Below are positions 13,710 through 59,050 of a DNA stretch of 64,000 bases, in pieces. The DNA lies in IMG/VR virus record IMGVR_UViG_3300017963_000192, positions 124,001-188,000 of that record; one strand, given 5' to 3'. A program made the translations under genes and the position numbers. Under the pieces are notes generated by a model. The model did no database searches, was not told the origin of the DNA, and saw only the letters and a program-made list of their open reading frames with translations. Position 1 is the stretch's first letter. The number at the start of each line of letters is the position of its first letter. Source of the DNA: a virus.

Positions 13710-16700
13710 TTATAATTCCTCAAACGATTTTTTTAACTCATCATTTAATAGGTGTGGATAGTCAATCCATAATCTTAAATTTTCTACAAATATAAGTACT
13801 TCATCTGTTTCGTGACCGTTAAGACACTTACCATTGACATCCCACAACTTACCTTGTTTTAACTTATAATTAACTTCGGGACTATCCTTGAATTTTTCAC
13901 TTAATTTAAAACCTCTAGGATTATCTGGATCATCAGATATTGGTTCAATTTGATTGAAAACTTTGTATGTACTCATTTCTTCTTGAGATAAATCAAAATT
14001 GCTTTGTTTAAAAGCTTTTCTTATAACTTTTTCATTAGAGTCATTTACAACTGTTATATGTTTAAGTAGACTTTCAGTAAAACTACACTCTTCCATACCA
14101 ACCCAATTAGATATATAGAGATTTTTACCTTGATTAAAGACAGGAATCATTCCTTTCTTTTGAATTTTTTCATAAGAAAGAGTATTCCTAATTAAATTGT
14201 TTTTAGCATCTTTATCCGGTATATCACTATATTTCTTCTCTAGTTTTTCTTTTTGACTTGTCTCCCATTCCTCTAAATCAACAACATCTAACACAAAAAT
14301 TATATTATCATAATCTTTCTTTATAAACTTACCCACTTTATTTAAAAACCTAGAAAGTTGAGGAATATATTCAATAGGACAATCCTTTACATTTATTCCA
14401 GCTATTGAATGTGAACGATGTCTTTGAATATGAGGATCAACATTGTTTCCAAATTCTTCATCATCAAATCCTTCAATACAAGGATACATTATCAAAATTT
14501 CGTTTTTAGCAGAAATTATAGAACCTAGATTTCTACCTTTGCTTAACAATTGTTTAACACCATATCTTAAACCATCATTTTTAACGACATTACTTAATTT
14601 AACAGTATAAACCCCTTGTTCCTGGTACCCTTTTAACTGTCCGTATGCAAAGCAAGTGTTACCAAGATTTCTTAAATGTTTGAAAATTTCAGATTTATCT
14701 AAATTTGAAGATGCAAACATTTTAGTCCATTCCTCAAATTCTCTTGATAGCATTAAATCAGAATAATCTGTTAAATCATCACTATCAGAATAATATTCCT
14801 GATGTATAGGGTAGAATTCAGTAACGCTATATGAATGGAGTTTGCCTTGTTTATATAAATTGGTGAGTATTTTAGAAATATCTTCATTTTCTTGAAGTAT
14901 CCCCTCTTTAAAATCACCATTGCTCTTTTTATCAATCACACTTAATTTATTATTTAAATTAATTAGTAATAATTTAACTTCAGAAGGTATACTAGGTGAT
15001 TCAAGATTTTTGAACCAAGTATCATCATCAACAGGATGAAGATTTTTAGTTATTTCACTATCAAAGTCAGCTTCTTTAACTTTTATTTCTTCTGGACTTG
15101 GTTTAGCTGTTTCAACAGTTCCCTCTTTTCCAATAAATTCTCTTGATTCAGATTCTAAGTCTTCAATATCTTCTTTTGAAATTTCTTCTGTTTCTGCTGT
15201 TTTTTTCTTACCAAGTCCCAACTTGTCTTTAATCTTTGCCGTAACACTACCCGTAGGAGGAGGTGTTCCACCAAGAGGTGAGCCAACACCAGCAGCACTA
15301 CCAACTAATGGATGAATAAAAGCACCAATCTTTTCTTCGAGTTCTTTTTGTTTCTTTTTATTACTTAATTCGTCTTCTAAGCTCATCCCCATTAATTGAA
15401 GAAGTGTTATAGCACTTATAGGTCCTTTACCTTGAGCATAAACATTATTCATAAAAGTCATAAATGCTTGGTCGTCACGCATCATTAATTTTTTATGCCA
15501 TAGTATTTTAGGAACAATGAGACGTTCTTCTAATTCTCTTCCAGATCTACTTACTCTGTATTGTCCAACTAATTCTTTCTTGTCCCTTCTGTACCAATTA
15601 TTTTTCTCTGCCATTATTCTAAAAAATTTATCTTGTATCCAAAGTACTTGAAATAAGTCTCTTTTAGCTTTATACCTTGATAGCTGAACTTGAAGACCAA
15701 CATTTGCTGAATTATATGTTCCTACATTATCAACAAGATAGCTATGGCTGTTTTCAACAGTTAAATTATAAACTTTTTTAGTATTTTTAATCGATTCAAC
15801 AGATTTTACCATTAAATAAACATAATTATCATCAACAAATGCTTTTTGTCCTTTAAATTTATGAGAATCATCAAAGTCAAACGTGCATTCTTCTTCCCAA
15901 ATTAATTTTGCCAAATCAAATGCAAATTTACCATAAATATCGAGTCTAATAATTGGTTTTCTTTTATATTTTGAAGTTAAATTTCTCTTATTGTTATCTT
16001 GTATTGTCCAATTAACTGGAAAACCTATTTGAGCTAATATCAATTCGATTTGATTTGCTAAAATTTTTGAGGTGGTAGTAAAATGAACAGTATGTTGTCC
16101 ATTTCTTTTATTTATTTGATGACAACCATCCCCTCTAAAAATTCCTTTAATCAGTTCTTTCTTTAAATTTAAAGACCAGCCCATCACTTCTTTAGATAAT
16201 TGTTTTTTGTGAGAATATTCTCCAGCGTGTTTCTTAAACCAATTTACTTTATCTTTAACTATATTTTGAGTGATTGATCTTAAATGCAGTGCCCCTTGCT
16301 TGTTAGAAAAACTTGAAATTGGAATTCCTTCTATTGCACAAAGATTTGTTACATCATCTATGTATTTACTTTCATTTTCTCCAAAACATAATCTAATTCC
16401 ATGCAATTCTTTTGTGGTGTGGTGCTTTTCATAACAACCTTCAGCTATAAAATAACCAAGAAGTCTGGCTGATGTTTCTGTAGTATTTGTATCAACTTCT
16501 ACAAAATTTCTTGGAATCATTAAGTAATCCCATTGTTTGATTTCTTCTGCTTTTAATTTCTTAATAGGGTTATAATTTATAGGTAATCCACTTATATATT
16601 TTTTTCTAATTGTTGTCCTTCCTATATCTATTGGATTTAATTTAATTCTTGGTGATTTTCCAATAGAATGAGCGTAGAGTTTGCCCGCATTAACCTCACG

Positions 16701-18068
16701 ACCACATCCACACGCACATTTACGAGGCCATGTCCACACAGACCACTTGTGATTATCAGTACATTTAAACTTCTTTCCTCCCCAAAGGGTTATTTCAATT
16801 ATATTGTTAGGAATCCCCTCGTCCCAATTATCTGTAACTTTTTGTTCCATACCATCTTTATCAATAACAGAATCCCCTACTTCAATATCTTCAACGTTTT
16901 TATATCCTTGAGGAGTTGTGATTTTTGTACCTTTTGTAAAACAAGCATAAGTTGATTCCCCACTTAAAAATTGTTTTCCTACTCCAAGAGCAACCATTTT
17001 CTTCTCTGTAATGTCTGACCACTCTTTTTCAAGTCTCATAACCTTGTCTGCAACAGTAACATATTCAACATTTAAGCCATAATGATAGATTAAACTAAAG
17101 TTTGGGTCGAAAGTTGACTGTTGTAACATTTGAGCCAATGCTCTTTGGTGCGTTTCGTTAGGAATCCACCCCTTGTTAGCGTCACCTAGTTTAAAAATCT
17201 TTAAAGGATAGATAAAGTTGTCAGCAATTGTGATTTGAGCCTCTCTTAATTTGTCTTCGTACATCAAAAGCCTAAAAATTCGGCTTATTATTGAAGTTCC
17301 TCTAACATCATAAGGGTTACTTCTTCTTGCAATGTGTGTAACCTCATCTGGATCAAGTGTTATGTTTTTTCCTGTTAAAACTCTTCTAAAAACGTCTTGT
17401 GGGAGTCTTCCTTTAAGTCTTTGATCTTCGGGTTTTGTTGAATGTACTAAAGATTTAAGTTCATCGTCTGGTATAAGCTCAATTACGCTTTCCTGGTCTG
17501 CAAAAGGAGTGAATCTTACTTCAATAAAATCAGGATTATGAACTATAATATCTTCCCACATTCCAGTTTTACTGTTCCAAGGAGTGTGAATGAAAATTTC
17601 TCCAATTTTCATAAATTCCAAGTCTATTGCGGGTAATTTCGAGAAAAATCCTGTTTTTTCAATACATTCTTGAATATGTGTGTTAATATGAGGGTCATCA
17701 ACTACAATTTCTGCTTTTGAATAAGGTAATTCTGCATGAACATCTAAAACGGCTCCTACTAATTCATCATGATCGTAAAACCATCTACACCATCTATTTA
17801 TTTGCTTTAAAGTTCGTGGTAAATAAATAGCTGTGGTAGTAATCTCTGGATCATAGAATCTTCTGGAAGGATTTCTTAATATATTATTTCCCGCACCGTA
17901 TGCGGCAATTTGATTAAGAAGATTTCCACCACCTAATCCCAAAGATTGAAACTGACCACTCGTTCCTTTCTTAATTCTTTCCCTATCTGTTTCAGCATTA
18001 ATTGTTCTTGGTAACATATCCTGAAAACTTTCAGGTAAAGGAACATTTTCTTGATTGATTGTAGGCAT
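13710..18068 (-). CDS. Portal protein precursor with intein and long C-terminal extension
   Basis: A 1,452-residue precursor with GGAG before its ATG. Residues 1-375 are portal-like: the clip/wing region has WFYDHDELVGAVLDVHAELP and VTHIARRSNPYDVRGTSIIS, ending QFLSGESTYA. An intein occupies 376-786, after which the portal continues SANVGLQVQLSRYKAKRD. Splicing leaves 1,041 residues, about twice a usual portal. After a Pro/Gly linker (about residue 925) comes an extra domain of roughly 450 residues (WFKNLESPSIPSE to the end) that I do not recognise. The portal forms the DNA entry ring of the head. Confidence 0.8.
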   Translation of the reverse strand: MPTINQENVPLPESFQDMLPRTINAETDRERIKKGTSGQFQSLGLGGGNLLNQIAAYGAGNNILRNPSRRFYDPEITTTAIYLPRTLKQINRWCRWFYDHDELVGAVLDVHAELPYSKAEIVVDDPHINTHIQECIEKTGFFSKLPAIDLEFMKIGEIFIHTPWNSKTGMWEDIIVHNPDFIEVRFTPFADQESVIELIPDDELKSLVHSTKPEDQRLKGRLPQDVFRRVLTGKNITLDPDEVTHIARRSNPYDVRGTSIISRIFRLLMYEDKLREAQITIADNFIYPLKIFKLGDANKGWIPNETHQRALAQMLQQSTFDPNFSLIYHYGLNVEYVTVADKVMRLEKEWSDITEKKMVALGVGKQFLSGESTYACFTKGTKITTPQGYKNVEDIEVGDSVIDKDGMEQKVTDNWDEGIPNNIIEITLWGGKKFKCTDNHKWSVWTWPRKCACGCGREVNAGKLYAHSIGKSPRIKLNPIDIGRTTIRKKYISGLPINYNPIKKLKAEEIKQWDYLMIPRNFVEVDTNTTETSARLLGYFIAEGCYEKHHTTKELHGIRLCFGENESKYIDDVTNLCAIEGIPISSFSNKQGALHLRSITQNIVKDKVNWFKKHAGEYSHKKQLSKEVMGWSLNLKKELIKGIFRGDGCHQINKRNGQHTVHFTTTSKILANQIELILAQIGFPVNWTIQDNNKRNLTSKYKRKPIIRLDIYGKFAFDLAKLIWEEECTFDFDDSHKFKGQKAFVDDNYVYLMVKSVESIKNTKKVYNLTVENSHSYLVDNVGTYNSANVGLQVQLSRYKAKRDLFQVLWIQDKFFRIMAEKNNWYRRDKKELVGQYRVSRSGRELEERLIVPKILWHKKLMMRDDQAFMTFMNNVYAQGKGPISAITLLQLMGMSLEDELSNKKKQKELEEKIGAFIHPLVGSAAGVGSPLGGTPPPTGSVTAKIKDKLGLGKKKTAETEEISKEDIEDLESESREFIGKEGTVETAKPSPEEIKVKEADFDSEITKNLHPVDDDTWFKNLESPSIPSEVKLLLINLNNKLSVIDKKSNGDFKEGILQENEDISKILTNLYKQGKLHSYSVTEFYPIHQEYYSDSDDLTDYSDLMLSREFEEWTKMFASSNLDKSEIFKHLRNLGNTCFAYGQLKGYQEQGVYTVKLSNVVKNDGLRYGVKQLLSKGRNLGSIISAKNEILIMYPCIEGFDDEEFGNNVDPHIQRHRSHSIAGINVKDCPIEYIPQLSRFLNKVGKFIKKDYDNIIFVLDVVDLEEWETSQKEKLEKKYSDIPDKDAKNNLIRNTLSYEKIQKKGMIPVFNQGKNLYISNWVGMEECSFTESLLKHITVVNDSNEKVIRKAFKQSNFDLSQEEMSTYKVFNQIEPISDDPDNPRGFKLSEKFKDSPEVNYKLKQGKLWDVNGKCLNGHETDEVLIFVENLRLWIDYPHLLNDELKKSFEEL
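15711..16943 (-). other. Portal intein with LAGLIDADG-type endonuclease
   Basis: A 411-residue intein, residues 376-786 of the precursor. It begins CFTKGTKITTPQGY (block A), has CTDNHKW (block B), two DOD-type motifs (LLGYFIAEGC and LIKGIFRGDGC) and ends HSYLVDNVGTYN before Ser+1. The penultimate residue is Tyr rather than the usual His. It splits the portal after GESTYA, in a segment that is otherwise continuous portal sequence. Confidence 0.9.
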
Positions 18069-34049: not shown

Positions 34050-34073
34050 AGGATGTGTGAGGTATTTATTATA

Positions 34074-35081
34074 ATGGCTACACAAGTTACATGCAATAAT
34101 TGTGGTAAGGATTTTAACGTTACACCATCAAGATTTGAGACGAGAGATTTTTTCTTTTGTTGTAAAAAATGTGAGGGAGAATACAGAAAAGTAGAACCTA
34201 ATATGAAATGTCCTATTTGTGATAAATCTTTTCATATAAAACCTTATAGAATAAAACGTTTATCAAATGGGGAAGAGGTTTGCTGTTCTAAAGAATGTTC
34301 TAATATCCATAAAATGGAAAGGATGCTTGGGGAAAATAATCATCAATATGGTTTAAAAGGTGAATTAAACTCAAGTTTTAAAAAAGATTTTAAATTTTCT
34401 AGATATGGATATTTATTGGTAAGATATGTAGATCATCCTTTTAGGGGTAAAGATGATTTTATTCTTTTTCACAGAATTATTATGGAAGAATTTTTGAAAA
34501 ATAATTATCCCGATAGTCCCTATTTAGTTACAGTTGAAGGTTTTGGCGAACTTTTATTTTTGGACAAAAGCATTGTAGTTCATCACAAGAATGAAAATAA
34601 ATTAGATAATAGAATTTCAAATCTTAAATGTATGTTTAAAGGAGAACATACTAGTTATCATAATGTAATTGGTAAAAAGAAAAAAGTAGCTACAACCCCT
34701 CTTGTTAAAATGGATTTAGATGATGCTGCTCAAGATATAATGAGTAATGAGAACGTAACGATTCCTCCTAAAGATTCTAAATTAATAAAAACAAACCTTT
34801 TTATAGCAATCCCTAAAAATCATGTTGGTCTTATATGGTCGAGAAGCGGAATGTCTGTTAAAAACAAAATTGAAGTTGGTGCTGGTTGTATAGATTCGGG
34901 ATATAGGGGTGAAGTTAAAGTTCATTTATACAATTATGGAAACAATTATTTTAAAGTTAATAAGGGGGATAGGATAGCACAGTTATTAACAATACCTATT
35001 AATCCTTATGAATATGAAGAAGTAGATGATCTAGATGAAACTAAAAGAGGTTCTGGAGGTTTTGGACATTCTGGAACATAA
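34074..35081 (+). CDS. HNH endonuclease fused to dUTPase
   Basis: Residues 1-205 form a zinc-finger plus HNH endonuclease: Cys pairs at the start (CNNCGKDF, CCKKCEGEY, CPICDKSF, CSKECSN) and the HNH core IVVHHKNENKLDNRISNL. Residues about 215-335 are a trimeric-type dUTPase with motif I (DAAQDI), II (SRSGMS), III (GAGCIDSGYRGEV), IV (KGDRIAQL) and V (RGSGGFGHSGT). No intein junctions flank the HNH part, so it is a permanent fusion. dUTPase removes dUTP and supplies dUMP. Two starts are possible (34053 or 34074). Confidence 0.85.
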   Translation: MATQVTCNNCGKDFNVTPSRFETRDFFFCCKKCEGEYRKVEPNMKCPICDKSFHIKPYRIKRLSNGEEVCCSKECSNIHKMERMLGENNHQYGLKGELNSSFKKDFKFSRYGYLLVRYVDHPFRGKDDFILFHRIIMEEFLKNNYPDSPYLVTVEGFGELLFLDKSIVVHHKNENKLDNRISNLKCMFKGEHTSYHNVIGKKKKVATTPLVKMDLDDAAQDIMSNENVTIPPKDSKLIKTNLFIAIPKNHVGLIWSRSGMSVKNKIEVGAGCIDSGYRGEVKVHLYNYGNNYFKVNKGDRIAQLLTIPINPYEYEEVDDLDETKRGSGGFGHSGT

Positions 35082-35762: not shown

Positions 35763-38700
35763 ATGAATAAGAATGTTTTCAAAACAGCATTTCAAGAGTT
35801 TATATTCGTTAGAACTTATTCTAGATGGTTAGATAAAGAAAACAGAAGAGAGACTTGGGAAGAAGCAGTAGATCGTTATTGTACATATATGAAAGAAAAG
35901 CATGGAGATAAAATATCAGATAAAGAATATAAGGATGTGCATGATTCCATTTTAAATATGGAAGTAATGCCATCAATGAGAGCTATGTGGGTTGCAGGGA
36001 AAGCTTTAGACATTGAAAACTTTTCTGGTTACAATTGTTTGGGAGAAGATACTGAATTTGTTACAGATAAGGGTGTCAAATCTTTCAGAGATTTTAAAGA
36101 CGGTGATAAGATTGTTGTTTTAACTCATAAAAACAATTGGAAGAAAGCTGTAGTTAAAAACTTCGGAAAGCAGAAACTAAACAAGATTACGTATGGTCTT
36201 GGAGGAAGAGGATTAGACAACATTGTCTATGCTACAGAGGATCACAGGTGGTTTTTGAATGATTCTGAAGAAGTTGTTACAGAAATAAAAGAAAAAGATA
36301 ATCTTTTAAAAAGTTGTTACAGAAAAACTTTTGATTTTGATTCTGCAACTCCAGAAGAAAAAACATATTGGTGTTATGGTTTTGTTTATGGAGATGGGAC
36401 TAAAATAAAAAGAAATGGAGAATATAAGCATAGTTTGGTAAGATTATTAGGTGATAAAAAAATATATTTAAATCGTTTTGAAGAAGTTGGTTTTAAAACG
36501 TCTGTGTCGGACAGTATAGATGGGGGTTGTTATGCTTATACTGGAGAATATTTAAAAACGTTACCTAAAATTGAAAAAGAGCCTTTGGGGAAAATAGAGG
36601 CTTTTGTAGACGGTCTTCTTTGTGCAGATGGAGGTAGAAAATATGTAAAAGACAATTTCTATTTTTGCAACATTCAGCAATCTGGAGAGGAGGGTATTAG
36701 TTTTATAAGAAAAGCTTTTCCTATGTGTGGTTATTTTATTGTTAGAGAGGATGATTATACTGGTGAGACTACTAATTATGGAGAAAGAAATAAAACAATA
36801 AGATTTTCTTTTAACAATCCTTACGCTACAGAGTACAATTCGTTGTATACTGTAAGAAAAATTGATGTTAGTTATAAAGAAGAGGATGTTTGGTGTCTTG
36901 TTGTTGAAGATGATAAAAGTTTTGTTTTGAAGAATGGATTAGTCACAGGAAATTGTGCTTTTACAACAATACAAAATCTAAAGGATTTTGCTGAAATACT
37001 TTATATTTTAATGAATGGTACTGGTGTTGGTTTTTCTGTAGAAAGAAAGTTTGTTAATAACCTTCCTTTAATACAGGAAGTAAATACCAACGAGGCAAAA
37101 GAAATGATAACCTTTGCAGATAGTAAATTGGGGTGGGCTAAAGGTTATGAAAAAGTTTTGAATTGTTTATGGAACGGAATTGACTTTGAGTGTGATTACA
37201 GCAAGATTCGACCAAGGGGTTCTCGATTAAAAACATTTGGTGGACGAGCTTGTCTTACAGGCAATACTGTTGTATACAAAGATAGGAAGAAAAGTAGAGG
37301 TTGCAACGAGATTACTATTAAAGATCTTTATGATATGAAGGTTTCAGGTAAAAGAAAACATTTTTCTGAAAGCAATCAACCTGGACCATCCCATTTTAAT
37401 AAGGTAAAATTGCGTTCTTTAGACGAAGAATCTGGAGTATTTTTTAGAAATCAATTAATAGATGTTGTTGACAATGGTGTTGCTCCTATATTTGAAATAG
37501 TAACTGAAAGTGGTTATAAAATCAAAGCAACTTCTAATCACAGATTTATGAAAGATACAGGAGAATGGTGTTATGTATCTGATTTTTCAAACGGAGATTT
37601 GATTGCTATTAATGGTTCTAAAGAAAAGAAGACAGGTGTTTGCATTGATTGTGGTATATTTGTTAGTAGGAGAGCTATAAGATGCAGATCTTGTGCCAAT
37701 AAAAATCAACAAAAAAATGATTGTTTGCCCACAACTGTTAGACAAAGAAAAGAATGTCAAAAAGATAAAAAAGATTTTTGTGAATTGTGTAAACACAATG
37801 GTTCAGTTAGTAAACTTCAAGTTCACCACAAAGACGGAAATCCTTATAACAATAAAAAAGAGAACAAGCAAACTTTATGTGAAAAATGCCACAGAAAAGA
37901 AGATGCTAGACGAACTACTTTTGGTAATCCTTACTCTCATAGATATTTATCTTATGATAAAATAGTTTCTGTTGACTATGTAGGTAAAGAGCAGGTTTAT
38001 GATTTGGTTATGGAGGCTCCTAACCATAATTTCGTAGCTAACGGGTTTGTTTCACACAACAGTGGTCCAGAACCTCTTAAAAATCTTGTTGATTTCACCA
38101 CAGATATAGTTGAACAAAATAGGGGTTATAGAATTCAACCTATAGACGCACACGATATTTGCTGTAAAATAGCAGAAATTGTTGTGGTTGGAGGAACTCG
38201 CAGAAGTGCTTTGTTAAGTTTATCTGATTTAACTGATAATCAAATGGCTCACGCTAAATCTGGAGAATTTTGGAATACAGCACCACAAAGGTCAATGTCA
38301 AATAACAGCGTTTCTTATACAAGAAAACCTGATATGGTTTCATTTTTGGATGAATGGAAAAATCTTTATAAGTCAAAGAGTGGGGAACGAGGGTTTTTTA
38401 ATAGAGTTGCTACTCAAAAAAAAGCTAGTGAGAATGATAGGAGAGATGGTTCTAAAGTTATTGGAACTAATCCTTCATTGAGAAAAGGAACAAAAATAAT
38501 AACAACGGATGGTCTTTTAAACATAGAAGATTTAGAAGGTAAAGAATTTGATATTATTAATCTTAATGGAAAAGTGAGTAAAGCTAAATGTTGGTTATCT
38601 GGTAAAAGCAAAAAATTATACCGAGTTAAATTTGTTGGAGGACACGAATATTATTGTACTGCTGAACACAAGTGGCCTGTTTATGAAGATGGTGAATATT

Positions 38701-41573
38701 TTAAAAAAGAAACCACAGAAATTTTTTCTAATGACTGGATTGCTGTAAATAAAAACGATGCTTTACCTTTTGGGAATCAAGGTAATTACTATGATGGTTT
38801 TTTTATTGGATGGATTTATGGAGATGGTGCTGTAGGTAATAGATCTACTGGTGAAAGAATCACTTCTTTATGTGTTTCTGAAGAAGCATTTAAAATGGGT
38901 ATTGGAGATATTCTTTTAGAAAAGTTGCATATGATAACAGGCGGAAAGCAAAAGTGGATTGATAGAACAGTCGATAAATCAACTTATGAAATGACTATTA
39001 CCAATAAAAAATTAGATGATTATCTTGATTCTTTTGAAGTTAAAAGGAAAGAACACGGTTTACCAAAATTTATTTTTAATAAAGCTAGTGAAGATTTTAG
39101 GAAAGGTTTTCTTGATGGTATTTTATCGAGTGATGGACATATTGAACAATCAACAAAAAATTCATATAGGTTAACCTTTATATCGAGTCATAAAAAAATA
39201 GCAGAGGACATATCAACTCTTTTTGGTATGTATGGTATAAAAAATTCTATTATGTTTAAACAAACTACAGCATCTTTTCCTAACGGAAGAGATTATGATA
39301 GGTTATATAATAGATATACTGTTCGTGTCTCAGATATTCATTCGATGCAACATTTATCTAGTTTACTTTCTTTAAAAAACACTAAAAATGATGAGAGATT
39401 AAGTAGTGTTCAAAACATAGAACCTCGTCATACAATAAACAAAAATAATATTAAAGTTATTAGTGTTGAAGAGACAGATTTGTTTGAAGATGTTTGGGAT
39501 GTTTCTGTTTTTGATGATACTCATTGTTTTCAATTAACTCAATGTGTTACTGGAAACTGTGGCGAAGTCCTCCTTCGGGACAAATCTCTCTGCAATTTAA
39601 CAGAAGTTGTTATTAAGCCAGAAGATAATTTTGATTCTCTTAAAAGAAAGATAAAAATAGCAACTATGCTAGGTACGTGGCAAGCAGCACTTACAAATTT
39701 TAAATTTGGTAGTAAAAAATGGAAAGAGAATTGTGACGAAGAAGCATTGTTAGGAGTATCCTTGACTGGTGCTAGAGATCACAAAATATTGGGAACAGTA
39801 AATGATACTGCAAAGAAATGGATAGCGGATTTAAAGCACATAGCTATTGCGACCAATAAGAAAATTGCACCAAAGATTGGAATTAATAGAGCCGCCGCAA
39901 TTACCTGTATAAAACCATCTGGATGTTTGTCTGTAGATTCTTTAATTACTACAAACGAAGGTATTTTAGAATTACAAGAAATAGGAGATGTTGTTGGAGA
40001 TGCTTGGCAAGATCATAAAATTTATGTTGAGCAAGAGAATTCCGCAGAACTATCAACTAAATTTCATGTTAATGGAGAAAGTCCTACTAAACTTATTCAT
40101 ATGAGTTCAGGAGTTGTGTTGGAATCTACTTTAAATCACAAATTTAGGGTTATGGAAAAAGGCGAGTATGTTTGGAAAGAGGCGAGGGATATAATAAACG
40201 GGGATTGTCTTCCTTATAAAATTGGGGGGTATGCGGGAGGTTCTTACCAAGAGTTAACAAAAGTTTCTCCTCCGTATTGTAATGTTAAAGAAATATTACA
40301 ACCAGAGAAATTAGAAGAAGATTTAGCATACGTTCTTGGACTGTATGCTGGAGATGGTAGTACTCATAAAAAAGGCATACGTATAGCAGGACATATTGAT
40401 AAGAAAGAAAGTTTGTATAAAGCATCAGAAATTATTAAAAGATTTTTTAATATAGATTGTATTATTTATGAAAGAACATCTGGAAATAATGCTGATTTGT
40501 ATGCAAATTCTACTTTTTTATTATCTTTTTTAAGAGCTAATGATTTAGTTAAAAATAAAACAGAACATGTTGAGATTCCATTGGTTATTAGAAAATCTCC
40601 TGCTTCAGTAATAAAAGCATTTGTAGACGGTTTGTTTGATGCAGATGGTTGTGAGTCTTCTAGTGGATACAAAATATTATGTACTGTGTCTGAAAAGTTA
40701 GCAAAACAACTACCTGTAGTTTTAAGATGTCTTGGATATGCTTGTTCTTGTAAATTAATGCCTCCAACGAAATCTTCATTAGGTAATAGGATGAGGTATA
40801 GAATTACAATTGTGAGAGGAAGAGATGGGGAATACAACAAAAGTGGTCTTGGAAAATACTATAAAATGTTGGATGATTTCAATATGAAAAATTTCATACC
40901 AGATATTGTTGAGTATGTTGAAGATAGTCATAGTAACACAGCAGATTTGGAAGTTCCTAATAATAATACATATATTGCCAATTCTTATGTTAGTCATAAT
41001 ACTGTATCCTTATTAGTTGATTGTTCACCAGGGGCACATACTCGGCAAACAAGCACGGGATATTATATAAGGAGAGTTAGAATATCAGCTACTGACCCAC
41101 TATGTTCATTGTTAAGGGAACAAGGTATTCCAGCACTTCCAGAAGTTGGGCAATCAAAAGATAATTGCAGTACATTTGTTTTAGAATTCCCTTGCAAAGC
41201 ACCAAAAGGGGCTAAAACAAAATATGGAGAAACAGCAAAAGAACAATTAGAATATTGGAAGATGTATAGAGATTTTTATTGTGAACACAACCCATCAATA
41301 ACAATTTCTGTTAAAGAGGATGAGTGGTTAGATACAGCAGCGTGGGTTTATAAAAATTTTGATAATATTGGAGGATTGACTTTTTTGCCATCTAGCGATC
41401 ATGTATATCAACTAGCTCCTTATGAGGATATTGATAGAGAAGAATATGAAAAAAGATTAAAAGATTTTCCTAAAAATATAGATTTTAGTGTATTATCAAA
41501 ATATGAAAAAGAAGATGCAACGGAAGGTGCTAGAGAGTTTGCTTGTTCTGGAGACAAGTGCGAATTAGTCTAA
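35763..41573 (+). CDS. nrdJ: Class II (B12-dependent) ribonucleoside-triphosphate reductase with four inteins
   Basis: A 1,936-residue precursor that splices to 640 residues. The extein reads as monomeric adenosylcobalamin-type reductase: MPSMRAMWVAGKALD, FSGYN+CAF, GTGVGFSVERKFV, GGTRRSALLSLSD, GTNP+CGEVLL, CNLTEVV, IKPSG+TVSLL, and a C-terminal redox pair CSGDKC. By family knowledge the Cys in NCAF, NPCGE and CNL are the active-site cysteines. It makes dNTPs for phage replication without oxygen dependence. Inteins occupy residues 92-397, 497-766, 905-1265 and 1388-1746, so no activity is expected until at least the first and third are removed. Confidence 0.92.
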   Translation: MNKNVFKTAFQEFIFVRTYSRWLDKENRRETWEEAVDRYCTYMKEKHGDKISDKEYKDVHDSILNMEVMPSMRAMWVAGKALDIENFSGYNCLGEDTEFVTDKGVKSFRDFKDGDKIVVLTHKNNWKKAVVKNFGKQKLNKITYGLGGRGLDNIVYATEDHRWFLNDSEEVVTEIKEKDNLLKSCYRKTFDFDSATPEEKTYWCYGFVYGDGTKIKRNGEYKHSLVRLLGDKKIYLNRFEEVGFKTSVSDSIDGGCYAYTGEYLKTLPKIEKEPLGKIEAFVDGLLCADGGRKYVKDNFYFCNIQQSGEEGISFIRKAFPMCGYFIVREDDYTGETTNYGERNKTIRFSFNNPYATEYNSLYTVRKIDVSYKEEDVWCLVVEDDKSFVLKNGLVTGNCAFTTIQNLKDFAEILYILMNGTGVGFSVERKFVNNLPLIQEVNTNEAKEMITFADSKLGWAKGYEKVLNCLWNGIDFECDYSKIRPRGSRLKTFGGRACLTGNTVVYKDRKKSRGCNEITIKDLYDMKVSGKRKHFSESNQPGPSHFNKVKLRSLDEESGVFFRNQLIDVVDNGVAPIFEIVTESGYKIKATSNHRFMKDTGEWCYVSDFSNGDLIAINGSKEKKTGVCIDCGIFVSRRAIRCRSCANKNQQKNDCLPTTVRQRKECQKDKKDFCELCKHNGSVSKLQVHHKDGNPYNNKKENKQTLCEKCHRKEDARRTTFGNPYSHRYLSYDKIVSVDYVGKEQVYDLVMEAPNHNFVANGFVSHNSGPEPLKNLVDFTTDIVEQNRGYRIQPIDAHDICCKIAEIVVVGGTRRSALLSLSDLTDNQMAHAKSGEFWNTAPQRSMSNNSVSYTRKPDMVSFLDEWKNLYKSKSGERGFFNRVATQKKASENDRRDGSKVIGTNPSLRKGTKIITTDGLLNIEDLEGKEFDIINLNGKVSKAKCWLSGKSKKLYRVKFVGGHEYYCTAEHKWPVYEDGEYFKKETTEIFSNDWIAVNKNDALPFGNQGNYYDGFFIGWIYGDGAVGNRSTGERITSLCVSEEAFKMGIGDILLEKLHMITGGKQKWIDRTVDKSTYEMTITNKKLDDYLDSFEVKRKEHGLPKFIFNKASEDFRKGFLDGILSSDGHIEQSTKNSYRLTFISSHKKIAEDISTLFGMYGIKNSIMFKQTTASFPNGRDYDRLYNRYTVRVSDIHSMQHLSSLLSLKNTKNDERLSSVQNIEPRHTINKNNIKVISVEETDLFEDVWDVSVFDDTHCFQLTQCVTGNCGEVLLRDKSLCNLTEVVIKPEDNFDSLKRKIKIATMLGTWQAALTNFKFGSKKWKENCDEEALLGVSLTGARDHKILGTVNDTAKKWIADLKHIAIATNKKIAPKIGINRAAAITCIKPSGCLSVDSLITTNEGILELQEIGDVVGDAWQDHKIYVEQENSAELSTKFHVNGESPTKLIHMSSGVVLESTLNHKFRVMEKGEYVWKEARDIINGDCLPYKIGGYAGGSYQELTKVSPPYCNVKEILQPEKLEEDLAYVLGLYAGDGSTHKKGIRIAGHIDKKESLYKASEIIKRFFNIDCIIYERTSGNNADLYANSTFLLSFLRANDLVKNKTEHVEIPLVIRKSPASVIKAFVDGLFDADGCESSSGYKILCTVSEKLAKQLPVVLRCLGYACSCKLMPPTKSSLGNRMRYRITIVRGRDGEYNKSGLGKYYKMLDDFNMKNFIPDIVEYVEDSHSNTADLEVPNNNTYIANSYVSHNTVSLLVDCSPGAHTRQTSTGYYIRRVRISATDPLCSLLREQGIPALPEVGQSKDNCSTFVLEFPCKAPKGAKTKYGETAKEQLEYWKMYRDFYCEHNPSITISVKEDEWLDTAAWVYKNFDNIGGLTFLPSSDHVYQLAPYEDIDREEYEKRLKDFPKNIDFSVLSKYEKEDATEGAREFACSGDKCELV
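36036..36953 (+). other. RNR intein 1 (LAGLIDADG type)
   Basis: 306 residues (92-397) starting CLGEDTEFVTDKGV, with block B ATEDH, DOD motifs GFVYGDGT and FVDGLLCADGG, and an end of FVLKNGLVTGN before Cys+1. The penultimate residue is Gly instead of His. It separates FSGYN from CAF, so Cys+1 becomes the conserved active-site-pair cysteine. Confidence 0.92.
37251..38060 (+). other. RNR intein 2 (HNH type)
   Basis: 270 residues (497-766) starting CLTGNTVVY and ending HNFVANGFVSHN before Ser+1, with block B ATSNH. In place of LAGLIDADG it carries a zinc ribbon (CIDCG, CRSCANK) and an HNH nuclease core (CELCKHNG, LQVHHKDGNPYNNKKENKQT, CEKCHRK). It separates FGGRA from SGPEPL. Confidence 0.92.
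38475..39557 (+). other. RNR intein 3 (LAGLIDADG type, Ser1)
   Basis: 361 residues (905-1265) starting SLRKGTKIITTDGL with serine in place of Cys1, block B CTAEH, DOD motifs FIGWIYGDGA and FLDGILSSDGH, ending CFQLTQCVTGN with penultimate Gly before Cys+1. It interrupts GTNP-CGEVLL, so Cys+1 is the predicted thiyl-radical cysteine. Confidence 0.92.
39924..41000 (+). other. RNR intein 4 (LAGLIDADG type)
   Basis: 359 residues (1388-1746) starting CLSVDSLITTNEGI, block B STLNH, DOD motifs VLGLYAGDGS and FVDGLFDADGC, ending NTYIANSYVSHN before Thr+1. It interrupts the conserved IKPSG-TVSLL loop that binds substrate phosphate in this family. Confidence 0.92.
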
Positions 41574-52815: not shown

Positions 52816-53277
52816 ATGAATTTTGAACCGCCTGTTGGATATAGGGTGTTAATTATAAGGACTTTAGAAAGAGGTCACGAAATTAAGTATTATCAAGATG
52901 GGAAAGTATTTACATTAGAAAAAGCATTAGAAATAGTTAAGGTAGCAATCCCTATGTTAACTCCAAACAGAGAAGAGAAAAGACAAAACGGTAGACGTTT
53001 CAAAGAAGACGGTGAAGAAATGTTTACTTTAACTGCTCAAGATCAGCATGGAGTGATGGTTAAGGATGAAGCTATTCCTAAAAGAAGAATAAGAAGACTT
53101 ACCCCTAAAGAATGTGAACGTTTGATGGGATTGGAAGATGATTGGACGAGATGGGGTATTGATGAAGATGGTAATGAATATGAAGTCTCGGATACACAAC
53201 GCTATCGGATGGCTGGAAATGGTGTTGTAGTAGACGTTGTAAGAGAGATTATAAGGAGATTGGTTAATGCAAGTTGA
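52816..53277 (+). CDS. C-terminal fragment of a cytosine-C5 DNA methyltransferase
   Basis: A 153-residue protein. Residues 55-153 match the last part of phage C5 methyltransferases: KRQNGRRFKEDGEEMFTLTA, then RRLTPKECERLMGLEDDW and SDTQRYRMAGNGVVVDVV (motifs IX and X). The S-adenosylmethionine site and the catalytic PC loop are absent. The first 50 residues are unrelated to that family. Either it is a decayed gene or a retained module, for example a DNA-binding or competitor domain. The reading frame is intact, and it overlaps the polymerase gene start by 11 bases. Confidence 0.7.
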   Translation: MNFEPPVGYRVLIIRTLERGHEIKYYQDGKVFTLEKALEIVKVAIPMLTPNREEKRQNGRRFKEDGEEMFTLTAQDQHGVMVKDEAIPKRRIRRLTPKECERLMGLEDDWTRWGIDEDGNEYEVSDTQRYRMAGNGVVVDVVREIIRRLVNAS

Positions 53278-56200
53278 AGAAATAAGAGCCATACCTCAAG
53301 GAATCAGAACTCGACCTCAGATGTTGGACAAGGTTTTTGATAACAAGTTCTGTAAAAAATGTAAGCTCTATCAATGTGCAAAGAATCCTTATATAGAAGG
53401 AAGGGGCAATAAGAATGCTAAATTATTAATTATAGGTGAAGCTCCTGGAAAAAATGAAGATGAGATGGGACAAGTTTTTGTAGGAAGTTCTGGAAAGACT
53501 TTGCAGGAAAGGCTTAATAGATATGATATTGATTATTATATAACCAACGCTGTAAAATGTTTAGACGGTAAATCCTTAGTAAAAACAAAAGAAGGTAATA
53601 AGCGGATTAATTGGATAGTAAAAAACAAATGGGATGGTGAAGTTCTTTCTATTAATAAAGATGGTGAGTTTGTCTGGAAAAATATTTATGGTTGGCACAG
53701 AAGTCTCATTAATAATAGAGACATATATAAAATATCAATAATAGATGGTAAAAACAATCCAAATGGAAAACCTAACATTTTAGTAACAGAAGATCATATT
53801 ATTATTACTGAAAGAGGTGAGGTTTTAGCAAAAGATCTTGTTTCTGGAAAGGATAAAATTGCTACTGGAACTCCTTATTTTGGAGGACATAGATCAGAAC
53901 AATTAATTATTGGATCATTGATGGGGGATGCGTTTGTTTCAAATAGAAATTATTTAGAAGAAAGACATTCTCTGAAACAAAGAGAATACCTACTTTTAAA
54001 AACCAAATTGTTGGAATATTGGAAACCCTCTATAAGTAAAGGAACTATTAGAAACAACAAAAAATCTTATTCTTATATTGGGTATAGGATTTCAAGTACA
54101 TTATTTTTTAAACAATTAAGGAAACAGTTTTATAAAAACGGGAAAAAAATTTTTCCCGAACATTATGTAAATAGATTAAATATTTTTGGACTAGCTATAA
54201 TTTTTATGGATGATGGCTACGGTAGATATTATGATAATAATAAGCATTCGAGAAGTGAGGACACGTTTCAAGTTGAAATTGCATTAGGAAAGATTGATGA
54301 AAAATCAGCCAAAAACATTGTGAACAGGTTTAAAGAATTAGGGTATGATGTATATGTTACAAATAAAGATATTTATAGATTAAGATTTAAATATAAAAAG
54401 GCTTATAAATTCTTAAAGGATATTGCAAAATATGTTCCCCATAGTATGAGGTATAAGTTGCCCGAATCTTTGAGAGATTATCCTTTTATGGAAAGTGCTT
54501 ACAAACCAGAAAAAACAAAGACATACTATTCTGAAATAAATGTTTCAAAAGTGGATTATTCAAAATTATCTAATTCAAAATCGGTTTATTGTATTGATGT
54601 AAAAGATACTCATAACTTTGTAACACCTTCTGGAGTTGTTCATAATTGTAGACCTACAGATGCTCAATCTAAAAATAGAACTCCTAGACCTGTTGAGATT
54701 AAATGTTGTCTTCCTTTTACAATGAAAATAATAGAAGAAATAAAGCCTAAAGTTATATTAACATTAGGAAGAATACCGATGTCTCAAATACTTGGATTGA
54801 ATTTAAGTATGAAGATTATGAGAGGGCATACCTATTACCATCCAGAATTAAATGTTACAATAATTCCCACATACCACCCTGCATATTTAGGGAGAGTTAA
54901 CGATGCTTTATATTACAAACAATTCGAAAATGATTTATTAATTGCTAATAATTTAGCGTATGCTCCGGCAAAAAGAATATTACCACCGTCACCAATTTCT
55001 ATGAAAGATCCAATAGAAATAAAGGAGTATTTAGAATCATTATTAAACGTTGATGCTATTGCAATAGACTTAGAAACAAGTGGGACTGATCATATTAATG
55101 ATAAAATAACTGATATATCTTTTTGTGCTAAAGCTGGTGAGGGTGTTCACATATCTTGGGATGATATAATACCTCATTTTGAATTATTGAGTGAGGTAAT
55201 GATGTCAGATGCTGTTAAGGTTGGTCAGAACTTTACTTTTGATATAAAGTTTTTAAGAATGGCTGGAGTAGATGTTAACAATTATTCTTTTGATACCTTA
55301 CTAGCAGAACATATGTTAACAATGAGTTATGAAAAGAAAGAAGTGAGTGGTTTGTATAAATTGAAGAACATGGCATGGAAAGGAACTCCTATGGGAGGTT
55401 ACGAAGAAGTTCTTGGCTCTGGAGGAATCAAAAAAGCGGTTAAAAAGAAAGAGAAAAAGAAAGATGAAGATGTTTTTCAAGGAAATTTATTTGAAAATCC
55501 TAATGAAAAAAAGAATGAAGAGCTAGAAAAATTTGCAAACGTTATAGATGTTATTAGAAAGAAAAAGTTAGAGGATTCTGGATTAGAACCTTTAGAATAT
55601 TATTCAGCAATGGATGCGGACGTTACATTTAGACTTTTTCAAAGACAGAAACCTTTGATTGATAAAGATTTCTCTTTTCCTTTTTATGAAATAGTAATGC
55701 CGTTATCATGGACATTAATGAGAGTAGAGGAAAATGGTATTAGGTTAAATTCGGATTATATGAATTCTATTAAGATTGATAATCTAGAAAATATGGAAAG
55801 ATGTAAACAAGAATTATTTAATCTGGCAGGGAAAGAATTTAATTTAAACTCTACTGATGATTTAAAAGATTTAATATTTAATAAGTTAAAGATAACACCT
55901 AGTGATGAATTTAAAACCAAACCAAGCAAAACCTATCCTGATGGGCAGTACTCAACCGATGAAAAAGCAATAGCGTATTATAGCTCGAAAAATCCAGCAT
56001 TGAATTTTTTGATTGAATACAGAAAACTTTACAAAGAGAACTCTACTTATATAGACGGCTTTAAAAAATTTATGCAAGAAGATACTTGGAGAGTCCATCC
56101 TAATTATTTACAACACTCAACTGCTACTGGAAGATTGAGTTGTATTTCGGAAGGGACGAAAATAACGATGGTTGGAGAAGAAAGAAATATAGAAAATGTT

Positions 56201-59050
56201 AAAGTTGGTGATTTAGTTTATTGTTATGATGAAAAAGGCGAATTGAAAATATCAAAAGTTACGAATGTTTTTAATAATGGCATTCAAGATTGTATTAAAT
56301 TAAAATGGCAAAGTAGTGGTTCTGGAGATATTGGAGAATTAGTATTAACACCAAATCATTTAGTAAAACACAAATATAAAGGGTGGATTCGTGCTGATTC
56401 ATTAAATCGATATGATAAGATTTTTCATTTAAGAAAGTCCTTACAGAAAAATGGTAGAATTAGATTATATGGGACTAACAAGTTTATGAAATTTGAGGAG
56501 CAAGTTATAAAGGAAGAATATTTTAAAGCTCCATCTAGTTTATTAATTCATCATAAAGATGAAAATCCGTCAAATAATAAAATTTCAAATTTTGAAATTT
56601 TATCTAATTCAAAACATTCAAAATTACACTCTATAAAATTGGTAAAAGAGGGAAGAATTAAATGGGATCATTTAGATAAGTATAGAGATAAGATAAAACG
56701 AAGAACTGGTAAAAACCATTATTATTGGAAAGAATTTAATAAAGAAGATCTTATCCAAATGTTAGAAAATGCTAATGGAGTGATATCTAATTTAAAGATT
56801 GACAAAGAAACATTTAGAAATAAATGCAAATTAGTTGGTTTTGATTATAAAAAATATAAATATTTTTATTCTAAAAAAGTTGGATATCTTGATGAGAAAA
56901 AAATTGTTAATGTTTTATATAAATTTGAAAAAGAATCCAATTCATTTGATAAATGTGCAAGGTACTTAGGAATAGGTAGATCTAAACTTAAAGAGTTATG
57001 TGACTATTACGGTATTTCTACAAATCATATGATTTTATCTGTAACACCTTTTGGAAAATGCAAAGTATATGATCTAGAAGTAGAAGAACACCACAATTTC
57101 ATTGCTAATGAAATTTGTGTTCATAATTGTCTTTCCCCACCTATTCAAACCATCCCTAGAAAGAACAAGATTAGAAACATGATTGTTCCCAGAGATGGAG
57201 GAAAGCTTGTTGTTGCAGACTTATCTCAAATAGAATTAAGAATCTTGGCAATGATTAGTGGTGATCAAAGAATGATAAACGCTTTTGAAAGTGGTGTTGA
57301 TTTTCATACTGCAACAGCTTGCAGTATGTTTAGAATAAATCCTAATGAATTTGATAAAAATAATTCTAAACATAATGAATTTAGAAGTGTTGCAAAATGT
57401 GTTCATCCATCATCTTTAATTATTTATAATCTTGAAATAAAAAGAATGTGTGATATTGTTAAGAATAGTAAAGAAGATTCTTTTGAAAAAATACAAGGAC
57501 ATATTTGGAACGGTAAAAATATTGTTGATTTAAAAAACACATATAAATCTAACAAAGGTAAGAGAATATTAATTTCTGCTCACAAGTCTATTTTAGTGTG
57601 TTCTGAAAATCATCAAGTACAGTTAAAAGATGGTTCGTTAAAAAAGGCAAAAGATATTAAAGAGAAAGATGTTTTATGTGATGTATCCTTTCCTGATTTA
57701 GTGTCAATGCCACAAAGTATTAAGATAAATCCTTTTAATGGAGAAGATGAACAAGGATTAACATTATGGTTAGATGAAAAATGGGCATATTTAGCTGGCG
57801 TATATACAGGAGATGGGTGCTATGCTGAAAAACATATTAGTATTTCTACTGGAAGTGAAAGCAAACACGAAGATTGGAAGGATGTTTTAATAAAAGCTTT
57901 TGATGATGTCGGAATTTATGCTAAAAAAAGAGATTCTCATTTTGATAAAAAAAGAAATAGAAATAGTAAAAGTAGTTCTGTGTACGTTGGTTCAACTAGA
58001 ACAAGAAGATTTTTTGATAAACTTGAACTGACAAAAGAGGGTGAAGGAAAAACATTAAGAGTTCCTCTGTGGGTGTTAAATAATTATGATAATTGTTGGG
58101 CATTCCTTGGTGGATTATTGGATACTGATGGAACAGTTACAACTGATCCATTAAGTAGAACATTGTCTATTACAACAAAGTCTTGGGAGTTAATGCAGGA
58201 TTTAACAGTATTGTTAAACAGATTAGGAATTGAATACGGAATAGAAAATACTTTCAATAAAACATATAAAAGATATTATTTTAGAGTGCAGATTTATGCA
58301 CGAAATACTGAAGAGATTTTTAATAGAAAGATAATGCGTTGTCCATACAAAGTTGAAAGATTAAAGAAAAAAGTAGAGACCCTTAAAAACAGAAGAAGAT
58401 CTAACCATAACAAAGATAATTTTGTTAAAAGAATTGAAGTATTAGATGAGGGAGATTTATTTGATATTGAAGTTGATTCTAAAGATCATCTTTATTGGGT
58501 AAATGGTATAGTAACTCACAACACAATAAACTTCGGAATAGCTTACGGAAGAGGTGCTTATTCTATCGTTGTTGAGTTAAGAGACTTCTATGGTATTGAT
58601 ATTACTCAAGATGAGGCAAGTAACTTTATTAACACTTTTTATGGGACGTATAAAGATGTTAAAAGATGGATGATAGAGACAGTTAATTTTGCAAGAACTT
58701 ATGGATATGTTGAAACAATTTATGGTAGAAAGAGATTTTTACCTATGATACATAGTTCTAATACAGAAGATAAAGCGAAAGCAGAGAGACAGGCAGTTAA
58801 TACTATGATTCAATCTTCTGCATCAGACGTGAACAACATTGCACTTATTAGAATAGGGAAATGGTTGGACGATAGCAATAAAAAATCTATGCTAATCGGA
58901 TGTGTTCACGATAGTATTTTAGTAGATAGCCCAGAGGATGAGGTTGAAGAAGTTTCTGAAAAACTTGTGGAGTGTATGACTAAAGATGTACCACGAATAA
59001 CTATTCCGCTTAAAGCGGATTTAGATATATTAGACAAATGGGAGAAATGA
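53267..59050 (+). CDS. Uracil-DNA glycosylase/family A DNA polymerase fusion with three inteins
   Basis: A 1,927-residue precursor that splices to 860 residues. Extein residues 1-230 form a family 4 (iron-sulphur) uracil-DNA glycosylase: FCKKCKLYQC, IIGEAPGKNEDEMGQ, YITNAVK+CRPTD, and the TYHPAYL motif. Then comes a 3'-5' exonuclease (AIDLETSG, GQNFTFDIKF, YYSAMDAD) and a Pol I domain (motif A VVADLSQIELR, motif B KTINFGIAYG, motif C CVHDSILVD). Motif C has Ser where Pol I has Glu (HDE). Inteins occupy residues 98-460, 959-1287 and 1378-1752. Replicative polymerase is the likely role. Confidence 0.92.
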   Translation: MQVEEIRAIPQGIRTRPQMLDKVFDNKFCKKCKLYQCAKNPYIEGRGNKNAKLLIIGEAPGKNEDEMGQVFVGSSGKTLQERLNRYDIDYYITNAVKCLDGKSLVKTKEGNKRINWIVKNKWDGEVLSINKDGEFVWKNIYGWHRSLINNRDIYKISIIDGKNNPNGKPNILVTEDHIIITERGEVLAKDLVSGKDKIATGTPYFGGHRSEQLIIGSLMGDAFVSNRNYLEERHSLKQREYLLLKTKLLEYWKPSISKGTIRNNKKSYSYIGYRISSTLFFKQLRKQFYKNGKKIFPEHYVNRLNIFGLAIIFMDDGYGRYYDNNKHSRSEDTFQVEIALGKIDEKSAKNIVNRFKELGYDVYVTNKDIYRLRFKYKKAYKFLKDIAKYVPHSMRYKLPESLRDYPFMESAYKPEKTKTYYSEINVSKVDYSKLSNSKSVYCIDVKDTHNFVTPSGVVHNCRPTDAQSKNRTPRPVEIKCCLPFTMKIIEEIKPKVILTLGRIPMSQILGLNLSMKIMRGHTYYHPELNVTIIPTYHPAYLGRVNDALYYKQFENDLLIANNLAYAPAKRILPPSPISMKDPIEIKEYLESLLNVDAIAIDLETSGTDHINDKITDISFCAKAGEGVHISWDDIIPHFELLSEVMMSDAVKVGQNFTFDIKFLRMAGVDVNNYSFDTLLAEHMLTMSYEKKEVSGLYKLKNMAWKGTPMGGYEEVLGSGGIKKAVKKKEKKKDEDVFQGNLFENPNEKKNEELEKFANVIDVIRKKKLEDSGLEPLEYYSAMDADVTFRLFQRQKPLIDKDFSFPFYEIVMPLSWTLMRVEENGIRLNSDYMNSIKIDNLENMERCKQELFNLAGKEFNLNSTDDLKDLIFNKLKITPSDEFKTKPSKTYPDGQYSTDEKAIAYYSSKNPALNFLIEYRKLYKENSTYIDGFKKFMQEDTWRVHPNYLQHSTATGRLSCISEGTKITMVGEERNIENVKVGDLVYCYDEKGELKISKVTNVFNNGIQDCIKLKWQSSGSGDIGELVLTPNHLVKHKYKGWIRADSLNRYDKIFHLRKSLQKNGRIRLYGTNKFMKFEEQVIKEEYFKAPSSLLIHHKDENPSNNKISNFEILSNSKHSKLHSIKLVKEGRIKWDHLDKYRDKIKRRTGKNHYYWKEFNKEDLIQMLENANGVISNLKIDKETFRNKCKLVGFDYKKYKYFYSKKVGYLDEKKIVNVLYKFEKESNSFDKCARYLGIGRSKLKELCDYYGISTNHMILSVTPFGKCKVYDLEVEEHHNFIANEICVHNCLSPPIQTIPRKNKIRNMIVPRDGGKLVVADLSQIELRILAMISGDQRMINAFESGVDFHTATACSMFRINPNEFDKNNSKHNEFRSVAKCVHPSSLIIYNLEIKRMCDIVKNSKEDSFEKIQGHIWNGKNIVDLKNTYKSNKGKRILISAHKSILVCSENHQVQLKDGSLKKAKDIKEKDVLCDVSFPDLVSMPQSIKINPFNGEDEQGLTLWLDEKWAYLAGVYTGDGCYAEKHISISTGSESKHEDWKDVLIKAFDDVGIYAKKRDSHFDKKRNRNSKSSSVYVGSTRTRRFFDKLELTKEGEGKTLRVPLWVLNNYDNCWAFLGGLLDTDGTVTTDPLSRTLSITTKSWELMQDLTVLLNRLGIEYGIENTFNKTYKRYYFRVQIYARNTEEIFNRKIMRCPYKVERLKKKVETLKNRRRSNHNKDNFVKRIEVLDEGDLFDIEVDSKDHLYWVNGIVTHNTINFGIAYGRGAYSIVVELRDFYGIDITQDEASNFINTFYGTYKDVKRWMIETVNFARTYGYVETIYGRKRFLPMIHSSNTEDKAKAERQAVNTMIQSSASDVNNIALIRIGKWLDDSNKKSMLIGCVHDSILVDSPEDEVEEVSEKLVECMTKDVPRITIPLKADLDILDKWEK
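53558..54646 (+). other. UDG-Pol intein A (LAGLIDADG type)
   Basis: 363 residues (98-460) starting CLDGKSLVKTKEGN, block B VTEDH, DOD-type motifs IIGSLMGDAF and FMDDGYG, ending NFVTPSGVVHN before Cys+1. It interrupts TNAVK-CRPTD of the glycosylase. By family knowledge the Cys restored on splicing is an iron-sulphur cluster ligand. Confidence 0.92.
56141..57127 (+). other. UDG-Pol intein B (HNH type)
   Basis: 329 residues (959-1287) starting CISEGTKITMVGEE, block B LTPNH, ending HNFIANEICVHN before Cys+1. It carries an HNH-like nuclease core (LIHHKDENPSNNKISNFEIL) and helical DNA-binding repeats (YLGIGRSKLKELCDYYGI). It interrupts the TATGRLS-CLSPPIQTIP segment of the polymerase. Confidence 0.9.
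57398..58522 (+). other. UDG-Pol intein C (LAGLIDADG type)
   Basis: 375 residues (1378-1752) starting CVHPSSLIIYN, block B CSENH, DOD motifs LAGVYTGDGC and FLGGLLDTDGT, ending YWVNGIVTHN before Thr+1. It interrupts motif B of the polymerase (VAK-TINFGIAYG), directly after the nucleotide-binding Lys. Confidence 0.92.

Follow-up and report, generated by a model that had tools for sequence, protein, structure and literature searches.

Four inteins in one predicted class II ribonucleotide reductase gene of a phage, one of them from a viral lineage with a class 3-like signature

Four inteins in a single ribonucleotide reductase (RNR) gene have been described in Trichodesmium (PMC1635734), where the gene lies on a cyanobacterial chromosome, and the gene that we analyse here likewise holds four (inteins 1 to 4) but belongs to a phage. 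Among viral class II RNRs, one frame (L130) has four insertion points and four others (L125, L126, L128 and L129) have three each, with sites 1 and/or 3 and/or 4 in common with our gene. The L130 frame shows three splicing stretches with Pfam and terminates in an apparent half intein; its fourth intein is interrupted after the first half by a GIY-YIG-like ORF and the second half is not seen before the end of the contig. Other viral inteins at site 4 are also split around endonuclease-like ORFs, whereas here all four are whole and lie in one frame. Among the loci examined, site 2 is occupied elsewhere in L137 only. The initial annotation had called four inteins in one phage gene extreme, and so it is, but with Trichodesmium and L130 beside it the gene is an extreme rather than a unique case of a known phenomenon.

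The GTNP^C or GTNPC^S site, where intein 3 lies, also houses inteins in MW202615, Thermus phage G20c, Nodularia phages, SPbeta bnrdE and L022/L023. The best relatives of intein 3 are same-site inteins in the class II RNR of MW202615 (41% identity) and in another RNR type (L032, 30%), both with Ser1 and a Gly-Asn end as in intein 3. The intein of L022/L023, which we take to be the split NrdJ-1, lies one residue downstream, after the cysteine and with Ser+1, while intein 3 precedes the cysteine.

Intein 1 has to be compared with class 3 inteins, which are defined by a W-C-T triplet, start splicing by attack of the block F cysteine and normally lack a nucleophile at position 1. MP-Be DnaB, Msm DnaB-1 and Bvi IcmO carry this triplet at B:12, F:4 and G:5, as does intein 1 (W72, C287 and T304), which unlike them keeps Cys1, a TxxH block B, a Gly-Asn end and Cys+1. 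Inteins of mixed class 1 and class 3 character were reportedly noted by Tori and Perler in 2011. The closest named relatives of intein 1 are inteins in the class III NrdD of Klebsiella phage FBKp34, Morganella phage MP1 and Vibrio phage V6Aob (36-39% identity), which have the same motifs at the same homologous cysteine, directly preceding the equivalent of C79 of T4 NrdD, in a host protein of the other RNR class.

The window analysed is 64,000 nucleotides long and covers bases 124001-188000 of a virus record of 217,703 bases, whose portal, major head and replication genes are of phage type. Its RNR gene is a single uninterrupted ORF of 1,936 codons with its stop at 41571-41573 (Table 1), in which Pfam recognised four Intein_splicing stretches (E = 8.4e-38) and LAGLIDADG_3. 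Motif boundaries place the inteins at residues 92-397, 497-766, 905-1265 and 1388-1746, that is 306, 270, 361 and 359 residues or 1,296 in all, leaving an extein of 640. These figures of the initial annotation proved exact to the residue by ORF, motif boundaries, Pfam and empty sites in relatives. RNA introns in the gene were considered and rejected, as no Rfam family reached threshold in the window, which thus shows no known intron type.

Table 1. Coordinates of the RNR precursor and its parts in the window
Feature	Position	Strand	Evidence
Class II (B12) ribonucleotide reductase precursor with inteins (predicted), 1,936 aa	35763..41573	+	ORF, motifs, Pfam, NCBIfam, 1L1L alignment
Extein segment 1, extein aa 1-91, FSGYN end	35763..36035	+	Motif boundary, empty site in L139
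Intein 1, 306 aa, Cys1 with W72/C287/T304, penultimate Gly, LAGLIDADG domain	36036..36953	+	Motifs, family alignment, model
Intein 1 block F:4 Cys287, candidate first nucleophile	36894..36896	+	Invariant, 69/69 distinct relatives
Intein 1 Cys+1, RNR cysteine aligned with L. leichmannii C119	36954..36956	+	Allelic class III NrdD site, T4 NrdD C79
Extein segment 2	36954..37250	+	Motif boundaries
Intein 2, 270 aa, class 1 type, HNH-type endonuclease region	37251..38060	+	Motifs; same-site allele in L137, 48% identity
Intein 2 best HNH match	about 37779-37907	+	Pfam
Extein segment 3	38061..38474	+	Motif boundaries
Intein 3, 361 aa, Ser1, block F Asp, Gly-Asn end, LAGLIDADG endonuclease	38475..39557	+	Motifs, alignment, Pfam
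Intein 3 Cys+1, RNR cysteine aligned with L. leichmannii C408	39558..39560	+	1L1L alignment
Extein segment 4, with C419-equivalent cysteine at 39591-39593	39558..39923	+	Motifs, 1L1L alignment
Intein 4, 359 aa, class 1 type, LAGLIDADG endonuclease	39924..41000	+	Sole one of the four common to syntenic relative
Extein segment 5, C-terminal CSGDKC pair (cysteines 41544-41546 and 41559-41561)	41001..41570	+	Motifs, 1L1L alignment

A syntenic relative (L139, a virus record of 252,876 bases), whose RNR is 68% identical over the extein, reads uninterrupted through sites 1 to 3 (FYN-CAFTT, GGRA-SGPGP and GVNP-CGEVLL) and carries intein 4 at KPSG^ with 70% identity to ours. The predicted boundaries are thus fixed independently by empty sites in relatives, and these empty alleles should indicate the expected spliced product. 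Between the two genes, dN/dS was 0.125 in the extein and 0.17 in intein 4, whose splicing and endonuclease halves gave similar values; because dS between the two phages is 1.4-2.0, near saturation, these figures are rough, and they indicate purifying selection on both the extein and intein 4. The same relative bears on the origin of the contig, which comes from IMG/VR and may be a fragment, as no end repeats were found in the record. That assembly joined inteins of different phages into one metagenomic contig is nevertheless extremely improbable: every intein is in frame and at the site that its own relatives use, an independent record shows synteny over intein 4 and the genes beside it, and the G+C content of the inteins (0.29-0.32) can be set against 0.34 for the extein.

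Next, we considered which enzyme the spliced extein would form. The best NCBIfam model was TIGR02505 (RTPR, the monomeric adenosylcobalamin RNR), with 286 bits for the extein and 332.5 and 317.2 bits for two intein-free phage relatives; it is the top-scoring model for all three, and all stay below its curated cut-off of 340.05. In the RTPR of L. leichmannii, C408 is the thiyl-radical cysteine, and C119 and C419 form the redox pair. Alignment with this enzyme (1L1L) pairs extein C92, C329 and C340 with C119, C408 and C419, respectively, and its C-terminal cysteine pair is kept as CSGDKC. Inteins 1 and 3 directly precede the C119 and C408 equivalents, so that the same cysteines double as the +1 splicing residues. 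Both the assignment to class II and the placement of two inteins at catalytic cysteines, as first proposed from the sequence, are supported by these results.

The initial annotation had also named failure of splicing, with an alternative RNR encoded elsewhere, as what would make this a dead gene. Searches of the 217.7-kb record gave no match to the class I beta subunit (PF00268), to class III NrdD (PF13597) or to a second class I/II large subunit (PF02867), the last being a weak negative for another intein-interrupted copy, since PF02867 misses the intein-broken RNR itself. The missing PF00268 and PF13597 matches fit with adenosylcobalamin dependence of the predicted enzyme. A non-functional RNR, in which the four inteins no longer all splice, would accord with a frame that is two-thirds intein and could be tolerated if another RNR existed. 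We consider this very unlikely, given that the record searches for a class I beta subunit and a class III RNR were negative, that the frame is open with motifs and catalytic residues complete, and that selection is purifying. With splice motifs and catalytic cysteines intact, the gene looks alive, and chance resemblance is excluded by the independent homologies of the inteins and of the predicted enzyme.

All four inteins have blocks A, B (TxxH), F and G, a C-terminal Asn and Cys, Ser or Thr at +1, and in each Pfam recognised the splicing domain; scored singly against the Intein_splicing cut-off of 35.8 bits, inteins 2 and 3 reach it and inteins 1 and 4 fall slightly under. The features of class 1 (Cys1 or Ser1, TxxH and Asp at F:4) were found in inteins 2, 3 and 4, whose splice nucleophiles are Cys1, Ser1 and Cys1 and whose +1 residues are Ser, Cys and Thr, respectively. 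Three LAGLIDADG endonucleases and one HNH had been proposed, and this count agrees with our analysis. LAGLIDADG_3 scores over its cut-off in inteins 3 and 4, and intein 2 has an HNH-type endonuclease with the HNH models under their Pfam cut-offs. The LAGLIDADG domain of intein 1, which Pfam does not recognise, is indicated by its motif residues Asp 120 and 198, kept in 67 of 69 relatives, and by a modelled fold (mean pLDDT 90.9, from a 33-sequence alignment) whose closest PDB match was PI-SceI, with I-DmoI also matched.

That the inteins arrived independently had been deduced from their differing endonuclease types, which by themselves would not demonstrate it; the conclusion is better supported by the relatives at each site and by the syntenic record that, of these four, holds intein 4 only. 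The closest relatives of inteins 1 to 3 are same-site inteins of other RNRs, site 4 is also occupied in other viral RNRs (several of the inteins there being the split ones mentioned above), and the closest relative of an intein is never another intein of the same gene. Taken together, the sequence comparisons support four separate invasions. A duplication linking inteins 1 and 3, which both end in Gly-Asn before Cys, was rejected, as they match each other with 21.9 bits but score 184 and 261 bits with their respective best relatives. Intein 2 has, besides the same-site RNR allele in L137 (48%), relatives of its type in two portal-protein genes (HNH inteins at L136 1734-2546 and L138 1-684) with the same RNR-like A^SGP flank, and more distant ones in thymidylate synthases. 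A jump of this type between unrelated genes with a common short flank is possible.

To describe the family of intein 1, we scanned viral contigs, which gave no match with the single sequence and 99 loci with a family alignment; 80 were kept, and together with phage records they yielded 69 distinct full-length inteins. All 69 have His B:10, Trp B:12, Cys F:4, Thr G:5, Gly G:6 and Asn G:7, the +1 residue is Cys in each of 75 loci tallied, and position 1 is Cys in 67 and Pro in two. The two patterns by which relatives had been retrieved covered part of block F and part of block G, and we rejected the idea that the W-C-T conservation is an artefact of these patterns, because the whole signature is kept in 19 members from one pattern alone and in 18 from the other alone, and likewise in relatives found without patterns. 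Interrupted at N^C, the host genes are for the most part class II RNRs, with class III RNRs among the rest; the class is uncertain for the low-scoring L119 and L121. A midpoint-rooted tree, weakly supported in places, groups class III hosts apart from class II hosts, with the clades nested one within the other, a pattern implying that the host class has changed once or more. A pattern scan of 84,980 bacterial and archaeal genomes gave three relatives only, two in NrdD and one (L134 3001-3840) at GTNN^C in a GMC-type oxidoreductase of a Proteobacteria MAG, which has W-C-T; the family is thus not confined to RNRs. A viral RNR (L129) has a member of about 140 residues without endonuclease, adjoining an intein split around a GIY-YIG-like ORF.

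While these results define the signature, they leave two ways in which intein 1 may begin to splice. On balance, we favour a start at block F Cys287, by the class 3 route. This would be consistent with the invariant W-C-T and with the two Pro1 members (L103 and L123), whose RNR frames, of 966 and 953 codons, are intact and which both encode the Pro by CCA, a codon two or more base changes away from Cys, so that Cys1 looks dispensable. On the other hand, Cys1 could be the starting nucleophile with Cys287 merely assisting, which would make all four inteins class 1; Cys1 in intein 1 and most of its family and the TxxH of block B, where class 3 inteins are reported to have DxxH (PMC12245125), argue for it, and Cys at F:4 also occurs outside class 3, being the second most common residue there in inteins generally (PMC4031507). 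This second reading is possible but in our judgement rather doubtful, because W-C-T is invariant where Cys1 has been lost from two intact frames. Since intein 1 has Cys1, we do not file it as class 3, only as an intein that probably works like one, and a 2020 census of 1,701 class 3 inteins, which required the absence of Cys1, would have left out most of its family. More tentatively still, the family may be a widespread viral lineage with a dual signature (Cys1, W-C-T and Cys+1) that specialises in one active-site position, the homologous cysteine of class II and III RNRs, and moves between enzyme classes of very low sequence similarity, and which would splice via block F and keep Cys1 as a dispensable relic or redox partner.

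In the mechanism that we propose, and that we regard as very likely in its general form, the precursor would lose four inteins, each a separate mobile element, and yield a working 640-residue adenosylcobalamin-type RNR. From intact motifs, empty sites, same-site alleles in other viruses and purifying selection, we infer splicing, cutting and RNR activity. Each endonuclease would cut intein-less RNR genes at the conserved active-site codon stretch, and repair of the cut would then copy the intein into the site. Inteins 2, 3 and 4 would take the class 1 route; in intein 1, Cys287 would attack the upstream junction, the chain would be transferred to Cys+1, and cyclisation of Asn306 would free it. 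After excision, the Cys+1 residues of inteins 1 and 3 would act as redox and radical cysteines, respectively, of an enzyme inactive until all inteins have left. The need for the inteins to exit, together with the loss of an essential residue if one is removed imprecisely, would help to explain their persistence.

Splicing could also be conditional, with redox state controlling the excision of inteins 1 and 3 and so coupling RNR activation to the thiol state of the cell. The catalytic and +1 cysteines do coincide with RNR redox cysteines, and in a class 3 DnaB intein oxidation at the block F Cys causes reversible inhibition (PMC6195587). However, the residues that the initial annotation had cited as hints of conditional splicing are what these families normally carry: Ser1 is a usual nucleophile of class 1 inteins (PMC7664689, PMC4031507), and the Gly-Asn end is the norm in the intein 1 family, while a phage intein with penultimate Gly splices completely and is slowed by a change to His (PMC5050341). 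Moreover, the syntenic relative lives without inteins 1 to 3, and its lineage thus does not depend on regulation by them. We hold redox control to be unlikely and retain the mechanism set out above.

The whole record carries 12 inteins, a load that the initial annotation had overlooked, as it had the class 3 signature of intein 1. Besides the four in the RNR, three lie in a fusion of family-4 uracil-DNA glycosylase and DNA polymerase I (window 53267-59050, plus strand; inteins at 53558-54646, 56141-57127 and 57398-58522), which in the syntenic relative is one intein-free frame of 868 residues. The portal gene (13710-18068, minus strand) holds a LAGLIDADG intein of 411 residues (15711-16943) with a Tyr-Asn end before Ser+1; an intein of the relative, in a 1,438-residue frame, probably belongs to this same gene. 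The DnaB intein (window 63912 to the end; L031 1250-3793) lies inside the P-loop (GKT^H...HN^S), with apparently His, not a nucleophile, at position 1, and a block F Cys was not seen in its sequence. Outside the window, single inteins interrupt a DUF5662 protein (L029), an 859-residue protein of unknown family (L030) and a radical-SAM protein (L044). Additionally, a dUTPase frame (34053-35081, plus strand) has an HNH-endonuclease-like N-terminal half fused in frame, which may be a domain fusion, an insertion or an unrecognised intervening element. In the relative, the same two profile searches found two intein-bearing genes, a lower bound because neither profile had picked up the DnaB intein of the record analysed here.

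These results describe a real, heavily invaded and probably functional phage RNR, an essential gene in which four separate mobile elements have accumulated, every one of them at a conserved stretch of the active site. With its relative, which lacks three of the inteins, the gene offers a natural comparison of the states before and after invasion, in which homing and the cost of inteins could be tested, and the 12 inteins here against the two intein-bearing genes found in the relative make a useful pair for asking why the loads of related phages differ so strongly. The family of intein 1, large and little described, probably splices by an unusual route, and this lineage would be worth biochemical study.
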